DNA of 64,000 nucleotides from Coriobacteriales bacterium OH1046 (GTDB taxonomy: Bacteria > Actinomycetota > Coriobacteriia > Coriobacteriales > Atopobiaceae), in NCBI GenBank assembly GCA_004010535.1, contig RQYE01000001.1:434001-498000 (forward strand), written 5' to 3'. Shown here in pieces: positions 17,387 through 23,908 of this stretch (positions are counted from its first letter, which is position 1; every line of letters begins with the position of its first letter). The notes below the pieces were generated by a model, which was given only the letters and a program-made list of their open reading frames with translations, did no database searches and was not told the DNA's origin. The position numbers were made by a program, and so were the translations under genes.

Positions 17387-19006
17387 CTAGGCACCGAGCA
17401 TCTCGCGCGCATGGGCGAGCGAAGCCTCGGTGGCATCGCCCGAGAGCATGCGGGCGATCTCGCGTACACGCGCTTCGCCCTCGACCTCGCGGATGATGGT
17501 CTCGGGCAGATCGCCTCCCGTCTTCTCGACCACGTAATGGCGATCGGCACGGGCTGCAACCTGGGCCAGATGCGTGACGACGAGAACCTGGTGGGTGCGG
17601 GCAAGATCTGCCAGCACGGCAGCGAGCGCCACGGCCGTGGCACCGCCCACACCGGCATCGACCTCGTCAAAGACGAGCGTATCCACCGCGTCGGCAGCGC
17701 CGAGAACAACCTTGGCGGCGAGCATCACGCGGCTGATCTCGCCACCCGATGCGATGCGCTTCAGAGGTTGCGCGGCCATACCCGCAGCAGGACGGTAGAG
17801 CAGCTCCACGCGCGAGGGCCCGGCACCCGTCCACTGGGCGCGCGGCAGGTCATCGAACGCAAGCTCCACCTCGGCCGTTCCCATCTCGAGGCGGGCCATC
17901 TGAGCAGAGATGGCCGCGCAGAGCTCGGGAGCCGCCGCTTTGCGCACGCGGGCGAGCTCGGCAGCTGCGGAAGCAAGGGCGGCCTCGGCGGCATCGACGC
18001 GGGCTTGGGCGGCACGCTCGTGCTCCCCTCCGCTCTGAGCAGCAGAAACGATCGCCTCGGCTTCGGCTTTGCGCGAGAAGGCGCTCGCGATGTCGGGGCC
18101 GAAACTCCGCAAAAGCCCTTGGAACGATGCATACCGCGCCTGCAGGCGCGCAAGTTCCGTCTCATCGATATCCATACGGTCGCAGTAGCTGCGGAGTTCG
18201 CGGCCCACATCTTCGATGACGGCGATGGCACCGTCAAGCGCATCGGCGAAGGCGCCGAGCGTCTTATCGTGGATGGCGGCGCCCTCGAGCAGGCGATGCG
18301 CGGAACCCACGGCATCGAGGGCGCCCTCGTCGCCCGAAAGCAGCTCGTAGGCGCCCTCGGCGCTCCTGAGCAGCTGCTCGGCATGCTCGGCGATCGGAAG
18401 CTCCTCGCGGAGCTCCTCGAACTCCCCTTCGCGGGGATTCACCTCGCCGAAGCGGCGCAGGACGAATTCGGCATCGGCCAAACGCTCGTTGCTCGCACGC
18501 ATGAGCTCGCGGACCTCAGCAAGCCCCTCTGCGGCATGACGCGCCTCATCGAGCGCCGCGCGGTACGCAGCGCGGGCGGAAGCTGCCCGCGCTCCCGCCC
18601 ATGCGTCGATGAGCTCGACATGGGTGGAGACCGAGAGCAGGCGCTGATGCTCGTGCTGGCCGCACAGGTCGACCGTCGATCCGATGCGTTCCGCAAGCTC
18701 GCGGACGCTCGCCATCGAGCCGTCGATGGATGCGCGCCCGCGACCGTCAGCCGAGAGGCGCCTGCGCACGACCGTGCCGTCGCTGTCATCGGGATCGAGG
18801 TAGAACAGGGCCTCTACCTCGAGATGGACCGCACCTTCACGGACATTCGAGGCATCGGCGCGCTCGCCCACGGCAAGCTTCACCGCCGAAAGGAGCGCGG
18901 TCTTGCCCGTGCCCGTCTCGCCCGTGAGCACCGTGAGCCCGCGTGCGGGCTCGATGTCCGCGTCGTGGATGAGCGCGACATCATGGACGTGGAGGGCTTC
19001 GAGCAT
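17387..19006 (-). CDS. recN: DNA repair protein RecN
   Basis: RecN is an SMC-like ATPase acting early in double-strand break repair. The ATG at 19006 overlaps the nadK stop by one base (TAATG). The much longer open frame upstream is nadK read out of frame. The 539 residues start MLEALHVHDVALIHDADIE and have Walker A GETGTGKTALL. A long alanine- and glutamate-rich coiled coil fills the middle (about 150-400). The C-terminal signature LASGGEISRVMLA-like (RIASGGEISRVMLAAK) and Walker B TLVFDEVDAGVGG follow. Length and order of motifs are normal. Confidence 0.95.
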   Translation of the reverse strand: MLEALHVHDVALIHDADIEPARGLTVLTGETGTGKTALLSAVKLAVGERADASNVREGAVHLEVEALFYLDPDDSDGTVVRRRLSADGRGRASIDGSMASVRELAERIGSTVDLCGQHEHQRLLSVSTHVELIDAWAGARAASARAAYRAALDEARHAAEGLAEVRELMRASNERLADAEFVLRRFGEVNPREGEFEELREELPIAEHAEQLLRSAEGAYELLSGDEGALDAVGSAHRLLEGAAIHDKTLGAFADALDGAIAVIEDVGRELRSYCDRMDIDETELARLQARYASFQGLLRSFGPDIASAFSRKAEAEAIVSAAQSGGEHERAAQARVDAAEAALASAAAELARVRKAAAPELCAAISAQMARLEMGTAEVELAFDDLPRAQWTGAGPSRVELLYRPAAGMAAQPLKRIASGGEISRVMLAAKVVLGAADAVDTLVFDEVDAGVGGATAVALAAVLADLARTHQVLVVTHLAQVAARADRHYVVEKTGGDLPETIIREVEGEARVREIARMLSGDATEASLAHAREMLGA

Positions 19007-19875
19007 TACTTGCCGCCCGTCTTTCCGTAGAACACGCGCGAGACGGAATCGTAGAAGCTCTGGGCGGAACGGTCGAGCAGGAGGATATCCCCAGGTCCGC
19101 GGCGGACCGATACGTGCTTGCCCTCGAAGCCCCTGCCATCTCCCTCCTCGCCCATGGGCTGGCCATCGGCGAAGAAGTGGCGCTTGGCGGGGCGCTCGGG
19201 CGACATGGAGATCTCGACCACATCGGACGGACTCGTCAGGAACGCGCGCGCCATGATGGTATGCGGGGCGATGGGCACGCAGACCATGCCCGTGAATTCG
19301 GGGGTGACGATGGGACCGCCGGCCGCCAGCGCATAGCCCGTGGAGCCGGTGGCCGTGGAGATGATGAAGCCATCGCCGCGCAGGCAATCGATATGGCGGC
19401 CCGAAACCGAGATATCGAACTCGACCATATCGCCTTGGCCGCCGCGCGAGATCGCAAGGTCGTTCAACGCGAACCCGGTCATCGAGTAGCACGTGCCGTC
19501 CGCACGCTCGAAGTCGGCGATGATCTCGAGGGTGGCCCGATGGCTTACGTGAAGCTCGCCTGCAAGCGCGTCGGCAACCGTCTTGATGAGGTCCTCGGGG
19601 CCCGCTGCCGTCAAAAAACCCAGATGGCCATAGGAGATGCCCACGATGGGGATCTCGCTGTACCCCACGATCTTCGCCGCGCGCAGCAGCGTTCCGTCTC
19701 CGCCGAGCGATACCACCAGATCGCAGCCGCTCGTATCGATGAGCTTGCCCGGGAAGAGGCTCTTGTCGTGGGCCCACTGGATCTCGACGCCCCTGTTGCC
19801 GAACCACGATTCGAGCTCGCGCGCGCCGAGGATGGCTTCCTTGCGCGAGTAGTTGGGAACAAGCAGAATCTTCAC
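19006..19875 (-). CDS. nadK: NAD kinase
   Basis: NadK phosphorylates NAD to NADP using ATP or polyphosphate in the cytoplasm. The 289 residues contain the diagnostic GGDGTLL (58-64), GISYGHLGFLTAAGPED and LNDLAISRGGQGDMVEFD. The region DGFIISTATGSTGYALAAGGP follows, with the conserved C-terminal cluster CVPIAPHTIMAR. It sits between tlyA and recN, as in many actinobacteria and firmicutes. About 140 bases separate it from the tlyA stop, and most of them are the long palindrome at 19965-20067. Confidence 0.96.
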   Translation of the reverse strand: MKILLVPNYSRKEAILGARELESWFGNRGVEIQWAHDKSLFPGKLIDTSGCDLVVSLGGDGTLLRAAKIVGYSEIPIVGISYGHLGFLTAAGPEDLIKTVADALAGELHVSHRATLEIIADFERADGTCYSMTGFALNDLAISRGGQGDMVEFDISVSGRHIDCLRGDGFIISTATGSTGYALAAGGPIVTPEFTGMVCVPIAPHTIMARAFLTSPSDVVEISMSPERPAKRHFFADGQPMGEEGDGRGFEGKHVSVRRGPGDILLLDRSAQSFYDSVSRVFYGKTGGK

Positions 19876-19964: not shown

Positions 19965-20067
19965 GCCGGGCTTGCGACGCGCGTGACGGGGGGACGGGTC
20001 ATTTGTCACGCCTCTTACGATCGTGACAAATGACCCGTCCCCCCGTCACGCGCGTCGCAAGCCCGGC
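19965..20067. repeat. Perfect palindromic element, copy 1 (46-bp arms)
   Basis: Arms 19965-20010 and 20022-20067 are perfect reverse complements around an 11-base loop. The inner 67 bases (19983-20049) match the element at 22037-22103 in inverted orientation, including 10 of 13 loop bases (CGTAAGAGGC). The shared arm core is GTGAC, a G run, then GGGTCATTTGTCAC. The outer 18 bases of each arm (starting GCCGGGCTTGCG) have no counterpart in the other copy yet pair perfectly. The right arm codes for the last 17 residues of tlyA. In RNA it would form a very stable hairpin at the tlyA 3' end. Confidence 0.95.
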
Positions 20068-20788
20068 CAGCCAGCAAATACTCGATATTGCCCTTAGCGC
20101 CTGCGATGGGACTCTCGCAACTCCCGAGTATCTGGAGCCCTTGGGCGATGAATGCGCTACGGACCTTTTCCAAAGCCGCACGGCGCAGCGCCTCGTCGCG
20201 CACGATGCCGCCCTCCCCCACATCCCCGCGCGGGACCTCGAACTGCGGCTTGACAAGCGCGATGAAGCTGCCGCCGTTGCGCAGCAGCGCACGCACGGCG
20301 GGCAGGACCGTCGCAACCGAGGTGAACGAGACGTCGCACACGGCCAGATCCACCGTACCCAGCCGATCGGGTACGGCCAGATCCACGATATTGGTGCGCT
20401 CCAGGAGCTCGACGCGGGAATCGTTACGAAGTTCCCAAGCGAACTGGGCATAGCCAACGTCGACGGCGATGACATGCGCCGCGCCATGCGCGAGCAGGCA
20501 GTCGGTGAAGCCGCCCGTGGAACAGCCCACGTCGAGGCAGTCCTTGCCGTCCGGGTCGATCGAGAAGGCGTCGAGGGCGCGCTCGAGCTTGAGGCCGCCG
20601 CGGCTCACGTAGCCCTTCTCACCGCGCACATGCAGGTACAGACCCTGCTCGACCTGCTCGCCCGGTGACGAGAGCCGCCTGTCGCGGCAGGATACCCTGC
20701 CGGCAAGCACGGCGCGCAACGCCTCGTCGCACGTTGCGAAGAAACCCTGCGCGACCAGCTCCTCATCCAAACGGCGCTTGCGTGCCAC
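20015..20788 (-). CDS. tlyA: rRNA 2'-O-methyltransferase TlyA, tail encoded by repeat
   Basis: TlyA family enzymes 2'-O-methylate ribosomal RNA and are linked to capreomycin susceptibility in mycobacteria. The 257 residues carry an N-terminal S4 RNA-binding domain (RLDEELVAQGFFATCDEAL) and the hinge RGGLKLERALDAF. An FtsJ-type methyltransferase follows, with DVGCSTGGFTDCLL, VAVDVGYAQ-like VIAVDVGYAQFAW, VCDVSF and LVKPQFEVPRGDVG. It starts at GTG 20788, directly abutting the xseB stop. The family end (GNIEYLL) is followed by about 17 extra residues, GRACDARDGGTGHLSRS, read entirely from the palindrome. This suggests the original stop was lost when the element arose. Confidence 0.92.
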   Translation of the reverse strand: MARKRRLDEELVAQGFFATCDEALRAVLAGRVSCRDRRLSSPGEQVEQGLYLHVRGEKGYVSRGGLKLERALDAFSIDPDGKDCLDVGCSTGGFTDCLLAHGAAHVIAVDVGYAQFAWELRNDSRVELLERTNIVDLAVPDRLGTVDLAVCDVSFTSVATVLPAVRALLRNGGSFIALVKPQFEVPRGDVGEGGIVRDEALRRAALEKVRSAFIAQGLQILGSCESPIAGAKGNIEYLLAGRACDARDGGTGHLSRS

Positions 20789-21085
20789 CTATTCGGCGCT
20801 TCCTTCCGGCCCTTCGAGCGCGATAGAGGCCGCCGTATCGCCCGCGATACCGTCTTGCCCTGCGTCGACGGCAGCTTGCGCGAGCTGGGCCTCCTCCTCG
20901 GGAGAGAAATCCGTCGCGTCGACCATATCGACCGCCTTGGAGCCCAATGCGATGGCCTCATCGAAAAGGTCGAGCGAGCGCTCGAGCGAGGTATCCTTGT
21001 CGCGGACAGCGTCGACGATATCGTCAAGACGGCTGCTGATCTGGGAGAACGTCTGATATTCGGAGACATCGACCTTCTTGGCCAT
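20789..21085 (-). CDS. xseB: Exodeoxyribonuclease VII small subunit XseB
   Basis: XseB is the small subunit that binds the XseA nuclease in exonuclease VII, which degrades single-stranded DNA. The ATG at 21085 lies one base past the nusB stop and gives 98 residues. The helical hairpin typical of XseB is clear (SRLDDIVDAVRDKDTSLERS, LDLFDEAIALGSKAV). An acidic tail of about 40 residues follows. The partner gene xseA, often adjacent, is not in this window. Confidence 0.85.
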   Translation of the reverse strand: MAKKVDVSEYQTFSQISSRLDDIVDAVRDKDTSLERSLDLFDEAIALGSKAVDMVDATDFSPEEEAQLAQAAVDAGQDGIAGDTAASIALEGPEGSAE

Positions 21086-21086
21086 G

Positions 21087-21551
21087 CTACGCGCCGCCTT
21101 CCCGCACGTGCGCCTCTTCGGCAAGCACATCGATGCCGGCCTCGATATCTGCAGCGACGCGGCCGAGGAGACCGTTGACGAAACGGCTCGTATCATCGGA
21201 TCCATATGCCTTGGCAAGCTCGACGGCCTCATCGATGGCAACGGGGATCCCCACGCTATCCTCGCAGATCATCTCGTAGAGGGCGATGCGCATGAGATTG
21301 CAATCGACCGCAGGCATGCGGGAGATGCTCCAAGCATGGCTGTATCTGGCGATGATACGATCGAGATCGTGCCTCAAGCCGTCGACGCCGAGCGCGAGCT
21401 CAACGGCGTATCCGTCGAGCGGGCCATCGGAGAGCGCATACTCGCCTCCAAGCACCTCCTCGACGGAACGGCCGACCGCCTCGGCTTGGAACAGGAGTTG
21501 GAGCGCCTGGCTGCGCGCGCGGGTACGCCCGAGAATCCTCACGCTGCTCAA
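21087..21551 (-). CDS. nusB: Transcription antitermination factor NusB
   Basis: NusB binds boxA RNA with S10 (NusE) and supports antitermination of rRNA transcription. The 154 residues show the all-helical fold signatures RTRARSQALQLLFQAE at the N terminus and NLMRIALYEMI in the middle. The C-terminal IPVAIDEAVELAKAYGSDDT and SRFVNGLLGRV are diagnostic. The start is TTG at 21551, two bases after the asp23 stop. A GTG four codons later is an alternative. Confidence 0.95.
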   Translation of the reverse strand: MSSVRILGRTRARSQALQLLFQAEAVGRSVEEVLGGEYALSDGPLDGYAVELALGVDGLRHDLDRIIARYSHAWSISRMPAVDCNLMRIALYEMICEDSVGIPVAIDEAVELAKAYGSDDTSRFVNGLLGRVAADIEAGIDVLAEEAHVREGGA

Positions 21552-21553
21552 GC

Positions 21554-21922
21554 CTACTCCTTGGGGAAGACCAAGCTGTCGATGCAGACGTCGACGTTGC
21601 CGACCTCATAGCCGACTTGGCCGCGTATCGCCTCGGCGATGGCCGAGCGCACATCCTCGGCGAGCTTGGTGAAGGGATAGCCGTAGAAGACCGCAAGATG
21701 GACGGTGATAGCGAGCTTATCATCGACGACAGCAGCCTCGACCGGCTCGGATACGGGATTGGCGCTCTTGGTGAACACGGAGACGAGGCTCGAAGCGATG
21801 TCCTTATCGCCTACCGTGGCAACGCCTGCGACGCGCTCGGCTGCACGGGAGACGATCGTGCTAATCACGTTGCGGGAAATGCCGATCCCAGAGATGAAGA
21901 GCTCATCTGAAGCCATTATCAA
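21554..21922 (-). CDS. Asp23/Gls24 family envelope stress protein
   Basis: This 122-residue protein has the Asp23/Gls24 (DUF322) fold: ISRNVISTIVSRAAERVAGV, then DDKLAITVHLAVFYGYPF and VRSAIAEAIRGQVGYEVGNV with a final VDVCIDSLVFPKE. Family members are abundant cytoplasmic proteins near the membrane and are linked to envelope stress. The exact role is not established. It heads the asp23-nusB-xseB-tlyA set, has AGGAGG upstream of its ATG and a good promoter at 21981-22009. The efp-asp23-nusB order is common in Gram-positive bacteria. Confidence 0.88.
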   Translation of the reverse strand: MIMASDELFISGIGISRNVISTIVSRAAERVAGVATVGDKDIASSLVSVFTKSANPVSEPVEAAVVDDKLAITVHLAVFYGYPFTKLAEDVRSAIAEAIRGQVGYEVGNVDVCIDSLVFPKE

Positions 21923-21980
21923 AGACCTCCTGCCATTCCTCGCGCGTATGCATGCAGAGCAGATTCCTTCTCATCGATAG

Positions 21981-22009
21981 AGTATAGACGTTCGACGGCC
22001 AAACGTGAA
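21981..22009 (-). promoter_or_regulatory. Promoter for asp23-nusB-xseB-tlyA
   Basis: On the minus strand TTCACG (22004-22009), 17 bases and TATACT (21981-21986) form a near-consensus promoter about 60 bases upstream of the asp23 start. It begins just inside the downstream flank of palindrome copy 2. The palindrome therefore separates the efp transcript end from this promoter. Confidence 0.6.
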
Positions 22010-22012
22010 CAG

Positions 22013-22127
22013 GGACGTGGCAGGGAGCGTGACAGCGTGACAGGGGGACAGGTCATTTGTCACACCCGTAAGAGGCGTGACAAATGACCTGTCCCCCTGT
22101 CACGCTGTCACGCTCCCTGCCACGTCC
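22013..22127. repeat. Perfect palindromic element, copy 2 (51-bp arms)
   Basis: Arms 22013-22063 and 22077-22127 are perfect reverse complements around a 13-base loop (ACCCGTAAGAGGC). The core 22037-22103 matches copy 1 (19983-20049) in inverted orientation. The two arm cores differ at two bases, and in each copy the opposite arm carries the compensating change. The outer 24 bases (starting GGACGTGGCAGG) are unlike copy 1 but still pair perfectly. The element lies 16 bases past the efp stop, so it would be a strong 3' hairpin and probably ends the efp transcript. Confidence 0.95.
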
Positions 22128-22143: not shown

Positions 22144-22707
22144 CTAGACGCGGCCGACGAACTTGCCGTCGCGCGTGTCGACTTTGATGATCTCGCCCAC
22201 GTTGAGATACATCGGGACCTGCACGAGCGCACCCGTCTCGACCGTGGCGGGCTTGGATCCGCCCTGGACGGTATCGCCCTTGAAGCCGGGATCGGTCTCG
22301 ATGATCTCGACCTCGATGAACATGGGCGGTTGCACGGCATAGAGCACGCCGTTGGCGTAGTTCAGGAGGCAGGCATCGTTCTCCTTGAGCCACTTGGCGT
22401 TGTCGCCGATCATATCGATGCCGACCTCGATCTGCTCGTAGGTATCGTTGTCCATGAAGTAGTACAGGTCTCCATCGTTGTAGAGGTACTGCATCTCGCG
22501 CGTCTGCATGTTGACGCTCTCGAATTTGGCAGACTGCTGGAAGTTCTCCTCGTTCACGCGGCCCGTGCGGATGTCGCGGTACTTGGTGCGCACGTAGGTA
22601 TTGCCCTTGCCGGGCTTGACGTGCTGGGCTTCGAGGATGACGCAGTCCCTGCCCTTGATGTTGACGCCTAGGCCTGCCTTGAGATCGGTGATGCCGAGAG
22701 TTGCCAT
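22144..22707 (-). CDS. efp: Translation elongation factor P
   Basis: EF-P binds the ribosome between the P and E sites and relieves stalling at polyproline stretches. The ATG at 22707 follows GAAGGG. The longer open frame to 22809 is not supported. The 187 residues have three beta domains: the KOW-like N domain with the loop KPGKGNTYVR (Lys34 at the tip, the residue modified in other bacteria), NEENFQQSAKFESVNMQTRE, and the C-terminal GALVQVPMYLNVGEIIKVDT with DGKFVGRV. No modification enzyme gene is in view. It lies 73 bases after pepP. Confidence 0.96.
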   Translation of the reverse strand: MATLGITDLKAGLGVNIKGRDCVILEAQHVKPGKGNTYVRTKYRDIRTGRVNEENFQQSAKFESVNMQTREMQYLYNDGDLYYFMDNDTYEQIEVGIDMIGDNAKWLKENDACLLNYANGVLYAVQPPMFIEVEIIETDPGFKGDTVQGGSKPATVETGALVQVPMYLNVGEIIKVDTRDGKFVGRV

Positions 22708-22780
22708 GGGAGCACCCTTCTTTCCAACCCGGATAGAGCCCGGGAAAATCCCTCTAACAGAGAAAGTATAGCCAATAAGG

Positions 22781-23908
22781 CTACGTGCAATCGATGACGA
22801 CCAGCTCATGAGGAGAGCTTGCGAAGGACACGTAGCCCTCCTCGGTCATGACGCCGGTATCCTCGAGACGGATGCCGAACCTGCCCGGCAGATAGATGCC
22901 CGGTTCGATGGTGATGACCGAGCCTGCCGGCACAGGGCCCGTATAGGTGCGTCCGAAGACGGGTTTCTCGTGGATCTCGAGACCGACGCCGTGACCGAGG
23001 CCGTGGGCGAAATACGCGCCGTAGCCGGCATCGGAGATGATCTTCACCGCCAGATTGTGGATATCCTGGCCGATGCAGCCGGGCTTCGCGGCGGCCGCGC
23101 AGGTCTCATGGGCGAGACGGACAACATCGTAAACCTTGCGCTGCTCCTCCGTGGGTTCGCCGAGGATGACCGTCCGGGTCATGTCGGCATGGTAATCGCA
23201 GGAAAGCGCACCGTAATCGAGGACGATGAAGTCGCCCTTCCTGACCGCGTAGTCGCCCGGTTGGGCATGGGGGTTCGCACCGTTGGGACCCGCTGCGACG
23301 ATGGATTCGAAGGAGAGGCCATCCGCACCATGGGTGAGCATGTAGTTCTCAAGCTCCACGCGGATCTCCTTCTCGGTCAAACCGGGTTTGATGAAGCCGC
23401 ACATGTGCGTGAAGGCCTCATCGGTGATGGCCTGGGCTTTGCGGAGCAGCGCGAGCTCTTCCTCGTCTTTGACGATGCGCAGGCGGGCGATGTCGGCGTG
23501 CATGCGGGGAAGCAGGGGTGCCACGCTCAGCTTATTGCACTCGACGAGAAGATCGTCGTAGAAGGCCAGCTCGACGCTGTCCTCGAGGGCAACCATGCGC
23601 GCACGGGAGGCCGCGACCTTACCGGCGGCCCACTCCGCTGCGCCGACCTGCTCCTGATCGAAGATCCACGGGCCGTCTGCACCGAGACGCTCGATGAAGG
23701 TGTTGAAATAGCGCGCATCGGTGTGGAGCCACAGGCCGTCCTCTGTTATGAAGGCGGCATGCGCATGCTCGGAATCGAAGACACGCTCCGCTCCGGTGAG
23801 CCAACGCAGGCTCGCAGTATCGCGTACGATCGCCGCATCGTGGCCGCGTTCGGCCAGAAGCGCGCGGAAGCGCGCGATGCGTTTCATAACCGTTGTTTCA
23901 TCGGACAT
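22781..23908 (-). CDS. pepP: Xaa-Pro aminopeptidase (M24 family)
   Basis: M24B metallopeptidases remove N-terminal residues preceding proline or cleave Xaa-Pro dipeptides. The start at 23908 (MSDETTVMKRIARFR) gives 375 residues; the open frame further up is antisense to the aroB-like gene. An N-terminal creatinase-like domain is followed by the pita-bread catalytic domain. The metal ligands are in VLDYGALSCDYHADMTRT (two Asp), GLGHGVGLEIHE (His), TIEPGIYLPG (Glu) and IRLEDTGVMTEEG (Glu). Its place next to efp is a common arrangement. Whether it acts as an aminopeptidase or a dipeptidase cannot be told from the sequence. Confidence 0.92.
   Translation of the reverse strand: MSDETTVMKRIARFRALLAERGHDAAIVRDTASLRWLTGAERVFDSEHAHAAFITEDGLWLHTDARYFNTFIERLGADGPWIFDQEQVGAAEWAAGKVAASRARMVALEDSVELAFYDDLLVECNKLSVAPLLPRMHADIARLRIVKDEEELALLRKAQAITDEAFTHMCGFIKPGLTEKEIRVELENYMLTHGADGLSFESIVAAGPNGANPHAQPGDYAVRKGDFIVLDYGALSCDYHADMTRTVILGEPTEEQRKVYDVVRLAHETCAAAAKPGCIGQDIHNLAVKIISDAGYGAYFAHGLGHGVGLEIHEKPVFGRTYTGPVPAGSVITIEPGIYLPGRFGIRLEDTGVMTEEGYVSFASSPHELVVIDCT

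Follow-up and report, generated by a model that had tools for sequence, protein, structure and literature searches.

REPIN-like palindromes with locus-specific mirrored flanks in a Coriobacteriia-type genome

The window, as we call the 64-kb stretch of DNA analyzed here, contains two perfect palindromes, each at the 3' end of a minus-strand gene. As a preliminary description had placed them, palindrome 1 lies at the end of tlyA and palindrome 2 at the end of efp. Recomputing their arms gave exactly the lengths reported there, 46 bp for palindrome 1 (19965-20067) and 51 bp for palindrome 2 (22013-22127). A scan of the window for perfect inverted repeats (arm length 20 bp or above, loop up to 60) gave these two and nothing else. 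The features of the region are as follows.

19006-19875, minus strand: NAD kinase gene, downstream of palindrome 1
19965-19982, no strand: locus-specific left outer arm of palindrome 1, which would be an inverted copy of the end of tlyA, in an inferred polarity
19983-20009, minus strand: 27-bp TIR/REP monomer of palindrome 1, variant GTGACAAATGACCCGTCCCCCCGTCAC
20010-20022, no strand: spacer of palindrome 1, GCCTCTTACGATC, containing the TAA stop of the lengthened tlyA frame
20015-20788, minus strand: tlyA (rRNA methyltransferase) frame, running about 16 residues into palindrome 1, past the C terminus of its relatives
20023-20049, plus strand: 27-bp TIR/REP monomer of palindrome 1, same variant on the opposite strand
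20050-20067, no strand: right outer arm of palindrome 1, overlapping the tlyA 3' end; probably the native flank (shuffles not significant)
21554-21922, minus strand: Asp23-family gene, downstream of palindrome 2
22013-22036, no strand: left outer arm of palindrome 2, made up of some 14 bp of unique sequence and some 10 bp of truncated repeat; probably native (shuffles not significant)
22037-22063, minus strand: 27-bp TIR/REP monomer of palindrome 2, GTGACAAATGACCTGTCCCCCTGTCAC
22064-22076, no strand: spacer of palindrome 2, ACCCGTAAGAGGC, the palindrome 1 spacer type inverted
22077-22103, plus strand: 27-bp TIR/REP monomer of palindrome 2, same variant on the opposite strand
22104-22127, no strand: right outer arm of palindrome 2; proposed inverted copy
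22144-22809, minus strand: efp (elongation factor P), with palindrome 2 beyond its 3' end; the listed frame probably begins upstream of the true start

The tlyA frame lacks the stop used by its relatives, whose products end in LLAGRLS, LLAGRLP or LLAGFLP, and terminates instead at the spacer TAA (stop 20015-20017; part of the frame inside the palindrome, 20015-20066). The efp stop is at 22144. On the other side of palindrome 2, a promoter-like TTCACG-17-TATACT (22009-21981) precedes the Asp23-family gene, 4 bp from the palindrome edge. Neither palindrome is followed by a T-tract and no terminator-like site was found at either, so we rejected their identification as intrinsic terminators. A search of Rfam gave no match. 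The palindromes might influence where transcripts end or how mRNA decays.

As single-stranded DNA, the two palindromes fold with energies of -72.1 and -74.1 kcal/mol, respectively (z of about -18 and -20 relative to shuffled sequence). Their 67-bp cores, 19983-20049 and 22037-22103, differ at two positions, and each difference is compensated on the opposite arm (CCGTCCCCCC versus CTGTCCCCCT), as had been noted before. The match in inverted orientation also held, with the loops of the two copies agreeing when one is inverted. Outside the cores, 18 bp in palindrome 1 and 24 bp in palindrome 2 pair perfectly. The preliminary description took these outer arms to be unrelated. That is so for the 18 bp of palindrome 1, all non-repeat except for the common GC adjoining the repeat, and for about 14 bp of palindrome 2; the other 10 or so of its 24 bases (gcgtgacagc) are a truncated repeat fragment.

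The shared core is built from a 27-bp terminal inverted repeat (TIR), GTGACAAATGACCTGTCCCC[C/T]TGTCAC, present twice in head-to-head arrangement; the repeat by itself forms a weak hairpin of 6-7 bp. The genome-wide search suggested at the outset turned up many further copies. In the 2.38-Mb genome, the repeat occurs 90 times (at most 4 mismatches) in 54 loci. Head-to-head pairs with short spacers account for 28 of these; the remaining loci hold single copies, direct repeats, and a few other arrangements. Many copies have pieces of "gtgacaaggg" of varying length stacked outside the outer edges of full repeats (e.g. L040, L045, L047, and L087). These are truncated 5' ends of the repeat and look like the stepwise addition of partial copies.

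The guess that a REP/RAYT system is involved was borne out. A single gene for a Y1 HUH transposase of 256 aa (C12:120299-121066) carries the 27-bp repeat on both sides. The two flanking copies are identical over 30 bp and are oriented to one another as the members of a pair are; the gene overlaps one of them with its 3' end. The protein matches Y1_Tnp (PF01797) with 53 bits at a cut-off of 23, and its HFH motif and the tyrosine three residues before.NP are conserved across relatives. It scored 54.6 bits, below the cut-off of 80, with the model for E. coli-type RAYTs (NF047646, an NCBIfam equivalog), and a PDB sequence search with it found no match. The GGGGACAG motif, together with a C terminus that looks like a helix-turn-helix, is in keeping with the TIRYT type (RAYT group 1). 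This C-terminal resemblance lies in a conserved segment, SxRQIxRLTGIxRGxI, that had no profile match. TIRs with the GGGG[AT][CG]A[CG] pattern are on both sides of the gene (GTGACAAGGGGACAGGTCATTTGTCACGC). Similar TIRs are found at the relatives L117-L120, and several relatives in other Coriobacteriia-type genomes have similar flanking repeats containing GGGGACAGG. Judged from sequence, the transposase and its TIRs fit the TIRYT/TIRtron class described by Di Nocera in 2013 (PMC3733652), which has been equated with TnpA_REP subclass 2.1 and RAYT group 1 (PMC6006769). REPINs are dispersed inverted doublets that form hairpins and are linked to a RAYT, as are the 28 pairs among the 54 loci. Because the same repeat flanks a transposase of the TIRYT type, the head-to-head pairs appear to be REPIN-like, gene-less derivatives of the TIRtron.

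The window's genome has one more Y1-type frame, a distant one with 30% identity (G000:C1:61103-61696; L116, L188). It adjoins its own head-to-head pair, TACAAACTCGACATGCCCGTCCCC, which has no further copies in that genome, and is a transposon without dispersed derivatives. In a Coriobacteriales MAG, a perfect palindrome with 48-bp arms (L126:2750-2854) is directly 5' of a related transposase gene. The site orthologous to G000:C1:536054 in another genome, G002 (L203, G002:C158), also holds a perfect palindrome, of a different repeat family, which suggests that this intergenic site is an insertion hot spot.

We then compared the arms of the 28 pairs. In 26 the two arms are identical despite 12 arm variants among the loci. 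Arms from different loci match in only 13.5% of comparisons, and 5000 permutations gave at most 12 of 28 identical pairs. The palindrome extends 11-24 bp past the element in seven pairs (24, 20, 19, 18, 14, 14, and 11 bp). The other 21 have only 1-5 matching bases past the 27-bp boundary, like a control that set the left flank of one locus against the right flank of another. Matches of at least 11 bp occurred once in 756 control comparisons (0.04 expected in 28). Extension past the element is not routine; in most cases the core leaves neighbouring sequence uncopied. In three of the seven extended pairs, namely the two window copies and C16:5098 (11-bp mirrored flank), the outer arms contain unique sequence that is not repeat. 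The remaining four are mirrored, truncated partial repeats whose junctions agree between the two sides. The outer arms of the extended pairs are unrelated between loci and share no consensus; they are therefore not part of one longer conserved element, which we rejected as an explanation. With many other copies present as well, neither outcome that the preliminary description had named as fatal to its reading was obtained.

The transposase record of a sister genome, G001 (JAKPQM010000131.1), is 95% identical. All ten G001 repeat sites that we checked are at loci with the repeat in the window's genome as well, so the insertions are old; five of the ten are pairs. At these shared sites the flanks are mostly 84-94% identical, differing by roughly 6-16%, and the repeats of the five orthologous pairs have a single change in all, present on both arms (TCACCC at G001:C15:14817, TCCCCC at C1:426609 in the window's genome). 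Unless the site was re-inserted, this is a concerted change of both arms. Unlike their flanks, the repeats of the five pairs are thus almost unchanged between the species, suggesting purifying selection or continued correction. In the two orthologous pairs with informative spacers, inverting one spacer improves the alignment (17 versus 14 and 11 versus 7), though with two short spacers loop inversion is only weakly favoured. Pairs in G002 and G004 are likewise symmetric. A second, unrelated repeat family in G001 (GTGAACAAAGCCCCCGTCCC, 29 hits) also has locus-wise arm identity and includes one mirrored truncated tail (L215, 45-bp arms). This family is found close to a related transposase gene that contains an in-frame TGA (G001:C33:15016-15765), and has only one, diverged copy in the window's genome.

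At the tlyA point the repeat in G001 is limited to its first 16 bp, and the efp site of that genome has neither a type-1 repeat nor a matching long palindrome. The outer arm of palindrome 1 overlaps the tlyA 3' end, and the efp-downstream arm of palindrome 2 adjoins an anchor stretch shared with G001. These positions suggest that each site may have one native and one copied flank, but local and anchored alignments of the tlyA and efp sites to G001-G003 did not differ significantly from shuffles (p 0.19-0.66). At the five other extended loci, the intergenic sequence of relatives is too diverged for the arms to be assigned. A repeat of the second family as the origin of the native arm of palindrome 2 was suggestive only, with no match in the window within 3 mismatches, and was rejected.

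The reading that we favour, at a probability of roughly two in three, is a REPIN-like element acted on by polymerase template switching, which copies arms and at times flanks. The palindrome would be two 27-bp TIRYT/RAYT terminal repeats placed head-to-head around a short spacer, without a transposase gene. The C12 transposase, encoded elsewhere, would move such elements as single-stranded hairpins. After insertion, the hairpin may lead a replicating polymerase to switch to the opposite arm, presumably in the direction given above for each palindrome. Such a switch would copy one arm onto the other, placing changes on both arms, and could flip the spacer. A polymerase overrunning the edge of the element before switching back would copy 11-24 flanking bases to the other side and so create perfect outer arms unique to each locus. 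Most pairs would end at the element boundary because they arose by RAYT transposition, and the minority that extend past it would do so because of template switching.

Template switching between inverted repeats is known to homogenize arms, extend stems, and invert loops (PMC8604942; PMC8794818), and E. coli quasipalindromes are reported to mutate by template switching (PMC7202029). The first two of these footprints are found here, with arm homogenization in 26 of 28 pairs and one concerted orthologous change, and stem extension into the flank in 7 of 28 pairs versus 1 of 756 control comparisons. The preliminary description had proposed strand switching promoted by the core. Of the readings considered it fits best the mirrored flanks, the locus-wise arm identity, the concerted change, and the lean of the spacers to inversion, and remains an inference. 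In one respect it had to be narrowed, as in 21 of 28 pairs the neighbours were left uncopied.

The transposase itself might instead make the mirrored flanks at insertion or excision, through single-strand cleavage and hairpin fold-back synthesis. These REPINs would then capture and invert host DNA, reshaping gene ends such as that of tlyA, as a built-in outcome of transposition. We consider this unlikely, at odds of about one in eight.

About as unlikely is an element inserted in the middle of an existing palindrome, such as a hairpin terminator, with outer arms that are target sequence. REP dimers within palindromes have been reported in A. variabilis, T. roseum, and H. neapolitanus (PMC3733652), and hairpins are what Y1 transposases act on. 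However, the reported targets have a consensus while the outer arms here are unrelated between loci, and four of the seven extended arms are the element's own truncated repeats. A palindromic target is missing at 21 of 28 loci, a T-tract at both window palindromes, and a matching long palindrome at the efp site of the sister genome, which has only a partial repeat at tlyA.

Selection for stable RNA or DNA hairpins, at transcript 3' ends or for transposase binding, could also have paired and lengthened the arms by point mutation. The position of both window elements at gene 3' ends, the reported compensatory changes in REPIN hairpins (PMC3116915), and the much higher conservation of the five orthologous pairs than of their flanks agree with this. 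Yet the 18-bp mirrored flank at the tlyA end, the 11 bp at C16:5098, and the mirrored junctions of partial repeats suit copying in one step, and a perfect stem of 46-51 bp without a T-tract greatly exceeds what a terminator needs. We therefore judge selection an improbable source of the symmetry. Hairpins are hard to sequence and assemble and the genome is a draft of 19 contigs, but an assembly or polishing artefact is very improbable, as unique flanks and genes continue correctly on either side, the arms are locus-specific, and arm identity and one mirrored tail are seen again in separately deposited genomes.

If template switching is responsible, the symmetry of REPIN arms, usually put down to selective maintenance of the hairpin or of transposase binding, would stem in large part from mutational copying from arm to arm that leaks into host sequence. 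Mirrored flanks, concerted changes, and flipped spacers would be natural footprints for measuring template switching in genomes. Such elements could also rewrite gene ends, as where the tlyA frame terminates within palindrome 1.

The elements are of the known TIRYT/REPIN kind, and what is unusual here is apparently the locus-specific mirrored flanks, which on REPINs seem to be undescribed in the open-licence full texts that were searched. Like TIRYT/TIRtrons (PMC3733652; PMC6006769), the system has a Y1 HUH transposase, whose C terminus here may be a helix-turn-helix, flanking inverted repeats with GGGG[AT][CG]A[CG], and further copies as singles, dimers, and clusters. It differs in its Coriobacteriia-type host, in dimers that far outnumber the transposase, and in the mirrored locus-specific flanks of some dimers. 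With the Pseudomonas fluorescens REPINs of Bertels and Rainey in 2011 (PMC3116915) it shares dispersed inverted REP doublets, hairpin formation, an associated RAYT encoded in trans, and compensatory arm changes; the RAYT group and the repeat are different, and here the arms pair completely as far as the spacer and can reach into host sequence. The dimers GTAG-15 of A. variabilis and CGTC-1 of H. neapolitanus are also enclosed by a further palindrome (PMC3733652), but that outer palindrome has one consensus across copies whereas here it is different at every locus. Arm homogenization, stem extension, and loop inversion are the footprints reported for quasipalindrome mutation (PMC8604942, PMC8794818, PMC7202029), which is known there as observed mutation, while the present case is an evolutionary trace left at a hairpin derived from a transposon.
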